Below, piece after piece: positions 29,523 to 57,271 of a stretch of DNA of 64,000 nt. The stretch comes from Caryophanales bacterium (GTDB taxonomy: Bacteria; Bacillota; Bacilli; Exiguobacteriales; Exiguobacteriaceae): NCBI GenBank assembly GCA_902363455.1, contig CABJAC010000003.1, positions 1 to 64,000 of the forward strand. The letters run 5' to 3'. A program made the position numbers and the translations under genes. Numbering within the stretch: position 1 is the first letter of the stretch; each line of letters starts with the position of its first letter. Under the pieces are notes generated by a model. The model did not search any database, had not been told where the DNA came from, and saw only the letters and a program-made list of their open reading frames with translations.

Positions 29523-29680
29523 AAAAAACGCCACACCCGATGTCAGGCATGACGTGAAAAGACCATAAAAAGAGGATCGTCCACGCCACTTCCCTCCGTA
29601 AGTCCAAACTTAATCAGGTTCAAAGGGTCCAAACGTCTCCGTCGTCTCAGTCAGCCTACTGACTCCCCTAGTGGTCGCTA
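29523..29680 (-). promoter_or_regulatory. TPP riboswitch (THI element) with terminator, upstream of tenA
   Basis: The minus strand holds the THI-box: ACTAGGGGAG near 29668, CTGAGA (~29643-29650), then GACCCTTTGAACCTGAT (~29612-29629) and the closing GGAGGGAAGTGG (~29583-29596). Then follows an expression platform with a terminator at 29523-29554 (ACGTCATGCC paired to GGTGTGGCGT, then TTTTTT). Thiamin pyrophosphate should turn tenA off. Confidence 0.93.
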
Positions 29681-45164: not shown

Positions 45165-45425
45165 AAAAAAAGTCCTCCATACAGCAAATATGCCGTATGG
45201 AGGACGATAGACTCGCGGTGCCACCTCACAATTGGAACAAACTCTGTTCCCTCTCTTCCGATGCGTCTTGACGAGACATCGTAGCCTAAGATAACGGGGG
45301 CTTCCGTCATGACCTACTTACCGTTCAGTCCTGCTCTCATGAGACCATTCATCAGACATCGTTGTACGGAAGTCCCACCTCTCTCCCGCTCTCTGGAACA
45401 ACGATTCGTCTAATTACTTAACTCA
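45165..45425 (-). promoter_or_regulatory. T-box leader 1 (tRNA-Trp), nearest trpE
   Basis: T-box AGGTGGCACCGCG at 45214-45226 (complement), terminator GTCCTCCATAC / GTATGGAGGAC with T7 at 45165-45205 ending 21 bases before trpE. Specifier candidate UGG at 45345-45347 in GAATGGTCTC, the usual GAA-before-codon form. Uncharged tRNA-Trp should turn on the trp genes. Confidence 0.92.
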
Positions 45426-45454
45426 TTCATCGATTTACTTATTTAATTGAATAC

Positions 45455-45725
45455 GAAAAGGGTCTTCTCGCCCATTCATGCTAAACATGAAGGACGGGAA
45501 GACCCGCGGTACCACCTTCGTTGACTATTACTAGTCCCCTCGAACGAACCGGTTGCCCTGATTCGTCGTCCTCGATAACGGGAGGTAACCGTCAGAGCCT
45601 ACTGTAAGTTCGGTCTGATGCTCAGAAGCCCATTCACCTGTTTCCCGATACTGATTCGCACCACCCATCAGCTCTCTTGAATCGTTTCATAGGTTACTTT
45701 TCTTCGTCATTGCGTCTGTTTTCTT
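45455..45725 (-). promoter_or_regulatory. T-box leader 2 (tRNA-Trp), tandem and promoter-proximal
   Basis: Second complete T-box: AAGGTGGTACCGCG (45505-45518, complement), stem GGGTCTTCCCG ... CGAGAAGACCC followed by TTTT at ~45464-45505, and a UGG specifier at 45630-45632 in GAATGGGCTTC. It begins ~12 bases after the likely transcription start. Two UGG T-boxes in series require read-through of two terminators. Confidence 0.9.
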
Positions 45726-55465: not shown

Positions 55466-55586
55466 TCTGATTCCCCCTTTGAAACTGCTTACATTTCTAT
55501 CCTACCCGTATTAAAACAGGAGGGCAAATCCAATTCGCAGTCTTATTCATTTTCTGATACAATACGCTTGGAAAGGGGTCACAGTC

Positions 55587-55841
55587 ATGCGAATCATCGG
55601 TTTATTATCTTTATTCATTCCAGGTGTCATCGGCGCCATTGGCATCAAGTTGATGCGGGACAGTGTTTTCCTAAAAGCTCAGTTCCCCTTCCGGTATCTA
55701 GGGGATTCTGCCTATGTATATGTACTGCAAGGGTTCACCGGCTTAATCTTAGCCATCGGCGGGATCGGCTTCGTCGCCGGCTATGTCTTTTATCGTGATC
55801 GGAAACGAGGCAAGGTTTCCGAACGGTATCAAAAAAAATAA
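55587..55841 (+). CDS. yqzF: DUF2627 membrane protein (YqzF-like), 84 aa
   Basis: Two hydrophobic helices (MRIIGLLSLFIPGVIGAIGIKLM and GFTGLILAIGGIGFVAGYVFY) and a basic tail (RDRKRGKVSERYQKK). Same family and place as B. subtilis yqzF, next to bkdR. Function unknown. ATG 55587 after AAAGGGG. Convergent with the putative large RNA, sharing its terminator. Confidence 0.88.
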   Translation: MRIIGLLSLFIPGVIGAIGIKLMRDSVFLKAQFPFRYLGDSAYVYVLQGFTGLILAIGGIGFVAGYVFYRDRKRGKVSERYQKK

Positions 55842-55847
55842 GCACAC

Positions 55848-55893
55848 AAAAAGGTCCCCATCTCTTGAACTCATTTCAAGCGCGGGACCTTTT
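55848..55893. terminator. Bidirectional terminator between yqzF and the large RNA
   Basis: AAAAAGGTCCC / GGGACCTTTT around a loop with its own small stem (CTTGAA / TTCAAG). T run on both strands. Confidence 0.9.
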
Positions 55894-56160
55894 ATTCATA
55901 TAAAGTTGGTTTCACTTACGGATGAACTCCTCTCATAGTAGAACTATTCGTGTACTTCAAAACCATAGGTTGTCCTCTTAATGAAGAGGTTGAAAGAAAT
56001 CAGATTTGGCTATCGAGCGATCGATAGAAAGATGAAGCTACTCCATTATCTGACTTTACTTGGACCTAGGTGAAGCATAATGTCATCCGCTTGACGCAGT
56101 CGATCATTCGGTTGCTAACATTCACTGCTAGACAACACTCCTTTTCACGAACTGTACTTA

Positions 56161-56196
56161 TTGCTTGGTCTTGCTTGGTCTTGCTTGGTCTTGCTT
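56161..56196. repeat. Tandem 10-bp repeat inside the large RNA
   Basis: Three perfect copies of TTGCTTGGTC and a partial fourth (TTGCTT) in a row. On the RNA it reads as repeated GACCAAGCAA. Probably a variable loop or linker expanded by slippage. Confidence 0.9.
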
Positions 56197-56443
56197 TGGA
56201 CACTTTTACGTTACCCCTTCACTTTTCCCTTGCTTCGAAATCGTGAAGTCTCACATCAGTTTAAGATCACCGATCTAAAAAAGATATGAATCGCCCTGAT
56301 AAGAAATCTATCAAGAGAATGTTGTCCATCATTCTTGAGCCGTTTACAGGTGGCGACCTGAGATGAAATTTGTTGAACGGTTTTCCGGGAACCAATTCGA
56401 CTCGACGTTCATCTGACGTCTTTCCAAATCATTTGGTACCTTT

Positions 56444-56471
56444 ATTATAACAAACATTTTAGTTTATGCAA
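56444..56471 (-). promoter_or_regulatory. Promoter of the large RNA
   Basis: TTGCAT (56466-56471, complement), 16-base spacer, perfect TATAAT (56444-56449). It sits after the spo0A terminator, so the RNA is its own transcription unit. Confidence 0.82.
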
Positions 56472-56505
56472 CATTTATTTAATGAATATTCAGTATTTTC
56501 TATAT

Positions 56506-56556
56506 AAAAAGACAGACGGCTCGGTACTATGTACTCCGAGCTATCCGTCTTTTTTG
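56506..56556 (-). terminator. Terminator after spo0A
   Basis: Long stem GACGG..AGCTCGG.GTAC / GTAC.CCGAGC.CGTC with T5 on the minus strand (A/T run on both sides). Confidence 0.88.
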
Positions 56557-56557
56557 T

Positions 56558-57271
56558 TTACGATCCATTCATGTGGTTGGAAACATAGGAAATAAATTCT
56601 GAGTTTTTCGGACTTTTTTGTTGTTCAATCCGACCAGTGAACAAGTTGTGTTCACTCATGCCTTCTTTCCACGCTGACTTAATCGCGTGACGCATCGCCC
56701 GTTCGACACGTGAAGAGGTTGTCTGATGTTTTTTTGCAATCATCGGATATAACTCTTTTGTGATCAGACCTAATAAATCTTCCCGTTCCAACACCATCAA
56801 GACCGCATCTTTTAAATACGTAAACCCTTTGATATGCGGAGCGATTCCGATTTCCCGTAATGTCGTTCCGACCTTTGTTTCGACCGGCTCCACTTGATTC
56901 GTCTGCACTCCATGAACGACAAGACGAATTTTATTAACGAGCTGATCAAGGCTGAACGGTTTTAATAAAAAGTAAGCAGCCCCGAGTGAAACAGCTTGTT
57001 GCGATACTTCATCTTTACCAAAAGCACTTAACATGATAACAGCCGGGCTGTTCTCATGATTCATCAAAGCCTCTAAAACTCCCAGTCCGTCAAGATGCGG
57101 CATGATGATGTCGAGCAACAAAACGTCTGTCTCGACGTGTTGCAATTTCTCAAGACAACTTTCGCCGTTATAAGCGACACATACTACTTCCATATCTTCC
57201 TGAAGAGATAGATGTTGGCGAATCAATTCGACCATTTCTCGGTTATCATCTGCAATCCCGACTCTAATCAA
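56558..57271 (-). CDS. spo0A: Spo0A-like response regulator
   Basis: Master regulator of stationary-phase genes. Receiver domain 1-120: Asp8/Asp9 (IADDN), phospho-Asp54 (LLLDIIMPH), Ser81 and Lys104 (LLKPF). Spo0A-specific DNA-binding domain ~135-230 with the recognition helix SSRVERAMRHAIKSAW. Length 237 aa versus about 260 in sporulators. TTG start at 57271 with GGGGTG upstream. Begins three bases after recN, with no spoIVB between them. Likely used here for non-sporulation control (inference). Confidence 0.93.
   Translation of the reverse strand: MIRVGIADDNREMVELIRQHLSLQEDMEVVCVAYNGESCLEKLQHVETDVLLLDIIMPHLDGLGVLEALMNHENSPAVIMLSAFGKDEVSQQAVSLGAAYFLLKPFSLDQLVNKIRLVVHGVQTNQVEPVETKVGTTLREIGIAPHIKGFTYLKDAVLMVLEREDLLGLITKELYPMIAKKHQTTSSRVERAMRHAIKSAWKEGMSEHNLFTGRIEQQKSPKNSEFISYVSNHMNGS

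Follow-up and report, generated by a model that had tools for sequence, protein, structure and literature searches.

To our knowledge, few stand-alone bacterial RNAs of the size and complexity considered here are known, and the functions of most of them are unsettled. One is OLE RNA (RF01071), a structured RNA of about 600 nt found in Bacilli near recN-dxs-ispA; it forms a membrane-bound ribonucleoprotein with OapA, OapB and OapC. Others are ROOL (RF03087) and GOLLD (RF01998). ROOL and GOLLD are large stand-alone RNAs in which a variable linker separates conserved domains, the ROOL linker being disordered and little conserved, and kissing loops help to join copies of OLE, ROOL and GOLLD (PMC12286853). 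Another stand-alone structured RNA of Bacillota is the raiA-motif RNA, or ModT (PMC11706538).

Here we describe a locus in a 64,000-nt stretch of Exiguobacteriaceae DNA (the window, to which all positions refer unless stated otherwise) that shares traits with each of these systems. It resembles OLE RNA in length, structure, host class and gene neighbourhood, but has no match to the OLE covariance model, no accompanying match to OapA, and a different genomic site. Like ROOL and GOLLD, it has conserved domains joined by a variable linker, and a candidate intermolecular loop; unlike them, it is chromosomal and syntenic, and it has no match in phage and plasmid records at an E-value of 1e-5. It differs from raiA-motif RNA in having been found in one family only. 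We favour, with a probability of about 0.5, the reading that a large noncoding RNA with pseudoknots is encoded here by a gene that stands alone, and that to date has been seen in no family but that of Exiguobacterium.

A putative RNA gene between spo0A and a DUF2627 gene

On the minus strand, positions 56440 to 55848 (about 590 nt) appear to constitute a stand-alone gene for a noncoding RNA, with a predicted promoter and terminator of its own; as a unit, it is supported by blastn matches in 38/38 family genomes and by a shared structure. The putative sigma-A-type promoter (56444-56471, minus strand; TTGCAT-16 nt-TATAAT) consists of a -35 element at 56471-56466 and a -10 element at 56449-56444, the latter preceded at a distance of one base by the TG of an extended -10, and its position places the 5′ start of the RNA at about 56437-56440. 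At the other end, a terminator hairpin is followed by five U residues (55848-55893, minus strand), its inner hairpin being invariant in both clades described below. The promoter is kept in the relatives inspected, which retain the TATAAT with its TG as well as the 3′ hairpin. A simple promoter/terminator scan of the window flagged neither signal of the RNA, because the -35 element fits TTGACA at three of six positions and the terminator stem is interrupted. The original prediction, a minus-strand stretch of about 590 nt running from a promoter to a strong terminator, is thus correct in coordinates, strand and both signals, and the perfect short hairpins that it claimed are present (56436-56424, 56420-56404, 56027-56010, 55989-55974 and the inner terminator hairpin).

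The next gene downstream encodes a DUF2627 protein and is convergent with the RNA in 38/38 genomes, as had been noted for the window. Upstream, spo0A lies on the same strand in 37/38 genomes. Pfam confirms the neighbours Spo0A, DUF2627 and a sigma-54 activator, and recN, argR, dxs, ispA and the genes of the bkd region were identified by reading the ORFs and the sequence. The exception is genome G009, where two ORFs that read like parts of an insertion-sequence transposase lie upstream of the RNA (L044, 4644-6223, minus strand) and where spo0A was not found in the 6.3 kb examined, at which point the contig ends; the promoter and the RNA are intact there. In favour of the RNA being the leader of a neighbouring gene, or read-through from one, the 3′ hairpin could equally serve as terminator of the convergent DUF2627 gene. 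The convergent orientation of the downstream gene, the RNA's own promoter and its persistence in G009 next to different upstream ORFs nevertheless make such an origin highly improbable.

Two further features of the neighbourhood were observed. As read from the window (56558-57271), spo0A directly follows recN, with no spoIVB between them; in PMC3533761, Exiguobacterium (E. sibiricum and strain AT1b) is listed among the non-spore-formers that bear Spo0A and lack spoIVB. Moreover, the stretch from spo0A to the DUF2627 gene measures 1311-1526 bases in L010-L018, as against 722-892 bases in the window and L001-L009, and the extra spacing between spo0A and the RNA may contain an ORF on the opposite strand.

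Distribution of the RNA

A first blastn search matched the RNA in 25 of 41 relatives, corresponding to 25/25 genomes of the Exiguobacterium family and 0/16 others, and a second one matched it in all 38 family genomes examined. The 25 matches of an exact-pattern scan of genome contigs all belong to Exiguobacterium, E. sibiricum 255-15 among them. Two covariance models, R1 and R2, which match the family genomes by construction, retrieved family members exclusively: 27 of 299 class genomes (R1), one of 398 genomes of a phylum set, namely G001 (R1), and 38 of 398 class genomes, with one match in each (R2). No homologue outside the Exiguobacterium family was found with either model in the class and phylum sets or by the exact-pattern scan; distant relatives could have been missed in the model searches, since for each listed genome the prefilter let just 7-11 of about 300-2500 candidates through to be scored.

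For the comparative analyses we used 38 sequences, i.e., the window and 37 family genomes, L013 being omitted because its RNA does not differ from that of L012. Their lengths, counted from the predicted start to the terminator, are 525-754 nt. Two clades can be distinguished: g1, to which the window and 18 genomes belong, and g2, with 19 genomes. Compared with three g2 sequences, the window shows 57-58% identity. We found no published description of this RNA in the literature searched, whose coverage was partial, so that an earlier report is possible. Small RNAs have been predicted in Exiguobacterium genomes (PMC10837837) and 82 noncoding RNA genes counted in E. chiriqhucha (PMC5399880), and the RNA may be among either set.

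Relationship to OLE and other known RNAs

In the whole window, the only Rfam models reaching their gathering scores were two T-boxes and one TPP riboswitch, all outside the RNA. The T-box leaders stand in tandem at 45197-45719 (minus strand); the ORFs downstream of them read as trpE, trpG and trpD, and by reading both leaders look tryptophan-specific; the riboswitch lies at 29574-29679 (minus strand). Within 55500-56600, Rfam returned eleven weak matches, all far below the cut-offs, and ROOL, GOLLD and the raiA-motif were not among the Rfam matches. We also considered a displaced RNase P, 6S or tmRNA, a candidate that was rejected as all three were found elsewhere in the 4/4 genomes tested.

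The original prediction had named the RNA as a candidate OLE RNA, at a separated locus in a non-classical host. At the gathering score, the RF01071 model matches nothing in the window; it likewise gives no hit on 55500-56600 up to an E-value of 10, and none in the 37 family genomes (0/37). Among 24 further genomes of the class, the same search recovered OLE RNAs of full length in 9, at 504-545 bits. A similar picture was obtained for OapA. The query, an ORF adjacent to OLE in L051 and named by its place and by reading, had no match in any of the 38 family genomes; in a control set of 46 genomes it matched in 6/6 OLE carriers (in G037, far from OLE) and, weakly, in one genome without OLE (G033:C14:172700-173128; E-value 5e-7, 26% identity). 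The genomic site differs too. Among four OLE loci that we read, OLE is adjoined by an ispA-like ORF in four, by an oapA-like ORF in three and by dxs in three. The gap between ispA and dxs in the window, about 120 nt by reading, is too short for OLE to sit there, and the RNA lies about 5.8 kb from this gap, beyond recN and spo0A. An OLE RNA that had diverged and come to lie at another locus would agree with the length, the host class and the gene neighbourhood, but the missing RF01071 and OapA matches and the different site leave this reading a negligible probability, and at the level of the covariance model it is refuted. The OLE interpretation was therefore wrong, and of the outcomes named beforehand as refuting it, the lack of a hit to the OLE model was observed. 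The observation on which it was built is confirmed, and the putative RNA matched no RNA family searched.

Architecture of the RNA

All elements described below lie on the minus strand; percentages refer to alignment cells that can pair, among 36 distinct rows in the 5′ domain and 33 in the 3′ domain. The 5′ domain begins with the P1 hairpin (56424-56436; CCAAA-UGA-UUUGG), in which 99.4% of cells are paired and one position pairs as A-U in 19 rows and as G-C in the other 17. It is followed by P2 (56404-56420; 100% paired, both sides changed in two of five pairs), whose loop reads CAGAUGA. The AGAUGA of this loop (56414-56409) is complementary to UCAUCU at 56366-56361, forming a candidate pseudoknot, PK1 (56361-56414); its six pairs are invariant in the 36 rows, which is neutral, speaking neither for nor against pairing. 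Between the two arms of PK1 stands the P3 hairpin (56372-56401), whose loop carries a CCGG (56388-56385) that is invariant in 38/38 sequences and unpaired in all local minimum free energy (MFE) folds. The P3 stem varies, and its local folding is modestly better than that of flank-shuffled controls (mean z -1.79; for the worst sequence z is -0.10 and 45% of shuffles are as stable). Further on come a predicted H-type pseudoknot, PK2 (56339-56360), made of CAGG/CCUG and GCC/GGC (88.2% and 95.1% paired; four of eight pairs change on both sides), and the P4 hairpin (56316-56335; 100% paired, four of six pairs change on both sides).

The P7 hairpin (56217-56248) has a variable stem and an apical UUCGAAGC(A/U)AGGG; it folds better than flank-shuffled controls, with a mean z of -2.92 over the 38 sequences and 8% of shuffles as stable in the worst one. 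Its tip, UUCGAAGC, appears to resemble a tRNA T-loop. P7 is separated from the 3′ domain by a linker that is 7-215 nt long in the 38 sequences and that, in some members of g1, is built of a 10-nt repeat without U; in the window this repeat, CAAGCAAGAC, is present in 3.6 copies (56161-56196). Such a variable, repeat-built linker is as expected of a spacer. A 15-nt motif, AAAAGGAGUGUUGUC (56131-56145), is found in the window and in 38/38 family genomes. Of three g2 folds examined, those of L020 and L022 place it inside a large loop.

The 3′ domain includes a long-range helix, P8 (55955-56076), which pairs 56076-56064 with 55970-55955 and is supported by the clade folds and by shuffling. Its letters differ between the clades at corresponding places; among the ten sequences tried, 0-18 of 200 shuffles were as strong in nine, and L019 fails with 73/200. 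Inside it, the P10 helix (56053-56048 with 56005-56000; overall 56000-56053) is 100% paired, with three of five pairs changed on both sides, and closes P10b (56027-56010), a hairpin confined to the fold of g1, since g2 folds differently there. The P11 hairpin CCUCUUCAUUAAGAGG (55974-55989) contains one pair that is C-G in 14 and U-A in 19 of the 33 rows, the other five being invariant. A candidate pseudoknot, PK3 (55928-55998), would join UUCUUUC (55998-55992) to GAGAGGA (55934-55928) and is 100% paired, with changes on one side only. Finally, the P12 hairpin (55910-55927), with the loop UCCGUA, has one pair that is U-A in 14 and A-U in 19 of the 33 rows, and three invariant ones.

Evidence for conserved structure

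The folding energy of the 611-nt minus strand has a z-score of -2.45 against 20 shuffles, none of which was as stable; for the plus strand z is -1.60, with one shuffle of 20 as stable. By itself the folding energy is moderate evidence, the strong evidence being conservation in 38 genomes together with the pairing kept between the two clades. When the clades were folded separately on a joint alignment, each gave 169 MFE pairs, and only 37 of them are exactly common. With the columns of the g2 alignment shuffled, this number was 0-4 in 30 controls. The consensus energy of g2 is -267, against -192 ± 6 in shuffled controls.

The named helices were written out by eye with the alignment in view and then counted; P3, P10b and the outer terminator stem were left out of the between-clade counts because the alignment register is wrong there. 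Of the cells in the 30 pairs of the 5′ domain, 97.7% are paired, falling to 30-43% when the partners are slid by 1-3 columns; the corresponding values for the 27 pairs of the 3′ domain are 100% and 40-55%. Changes on both sides that keep the pair were found at 16 of 57 pairs (11/30 in the 5′ domain and 5/27 in the 3′ domain). Three measures, the number of both-side-changed cells, the percentage paired and the covariation score, were reached by 0/500 shuffles in both domains. The number of both-side-changed pairs was reached by 6/500 shuffles in the 5′ domain and by 372/500 in the 3′ domain, and the number of further pair types lies below every shuffle in both, which counts against structure. 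There are 78 G-U cells versus 8 A-C cells, favouring the minus strand as the RNA.

The by-eye helices thus display the covariation among relatives that was to be sought, whereas an unbiased test for covariation over all pairs, set against a phylogenetic (tree-based) null and from which 110 of 616 columns, mostly gapped, were dropped, gave no pair at E < 0.05 (best value 1.15). This test is underpowered because there are just two main clades; most of the both-side changes correspond to a single event between the clades, i.e., to few independent events. Taking these results together, we consider it very likely, short of proof, that the locus is a real structured noncoding RNA gene.

Coding potential

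A large structured RNA without a protein product had been predicted, and conservation in 38 genomes and the structure common to both clades support the first part of this prediction. For the second, we looked for a frame that might make the RNA the mRNA of a small protein, possibly with a dual function. In the 14 sequences examined, the frame that reads K-E-C-C across the 15-nt motif stays open until a stop codon is reached, and has a GTG or TTG placed 12 nt behind a GGAG. Over its 16 codons (L019 left out) there are 5 synonymous and 19 non-synonymous changes, a ratio close to the expectation without coding constraint, and both the residues and the length (16, 19 or 20 aa) differ between clades. 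Among seven sequences examined, longer ORFs occur in single sequences, the longest (108 aa) being encoded by the opposite strand in L019, and are not common to the others, and three ORFs of the RNA stretch have no match in Pfam. A conserved translated ORF, which would have overturned the prediction, was therefore not found: neither the common frame nor the three ORFs give a coding signal, and despite the open motif frame and the occasional long ORFs, we judge a small-protein mRNA very unlikely.

Possible modes of action and regulation

According to the reading that we favour, the gene would be transcribed from the sigma-A promoter to the terminator and the RNA itself would be the product, its 5′ domain (P1-P4 with the pseudoknots) and 3′ domain (P8-P12) being joined by a flexible spacer. 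The RNA may act as a scaffold or within a ribonucleoprotein, a proposal that we hold tentatively, at somewhat less than even odds. It is also conceivable, if rather doubtful, that it forms a homodimer: the self-complementary CCGG loop of P3, a short palindrome on which the whole idea rests, could join two copies, by analogy with OLE, ROOL and GOLLD (PMC12286853).

Alternatively, the RNA could be a long base-pairing sRNA that acts on mRNAs via conserved single-stranded purine or pyrimidine stretches (AAAAGGAG, UUUCUUUC). The ubiquity and loop position of AAAAGGAGUGUUGUC, which resembles a Shine-Dalgarno sequence, would suit this mechanism, as would the invariance of UUCUUUC in 33 distinct rows. 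Against it, UUCUUUC has a fully complementary partner within the RNA, and sRNAs do not usually contain pseudoknots or reach 525-754 nt. We regard this alternative as unlikely.

As to the control of the proposed stand-alone gene, cre-like sites fitting 9 or 10 of 10 informative positions of the cre consensus are present in the upstream regions of 28 of the 38 sequences, as compared with 25 of 2000 single-base shuffles. They occur in 19/19 sequences of g2 and 9/19 of g1, and are absent upstream in the remaining 10/38, namely the window and its nine nearest relatives. Judging from these sites, expression is likely to be under CcpA carbon control in most species; such control is not indicated for the species of the window. 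In its most extended form, our proposal would be a new RNA family, large and ornate, that is private to the Exiguobacterium family, forming homodimers or larger RNA-only particles via the CCGG of P3, varying its linker length in some species by amplification of the U-free 10-nt repeat, and controlled by CcpA in most species. The whole of this combination is a speculation that we consider improbable.

The RNA is present in every genome of the family examined. Since its hosts have no match to OLE or OapA, it could be deleted and studied there free of interference from OLE. It also offers a concrete test of whether RNA-only oligomers extend beyond OLE, ROOL and GOLLD, the cases described in PMC12286853.
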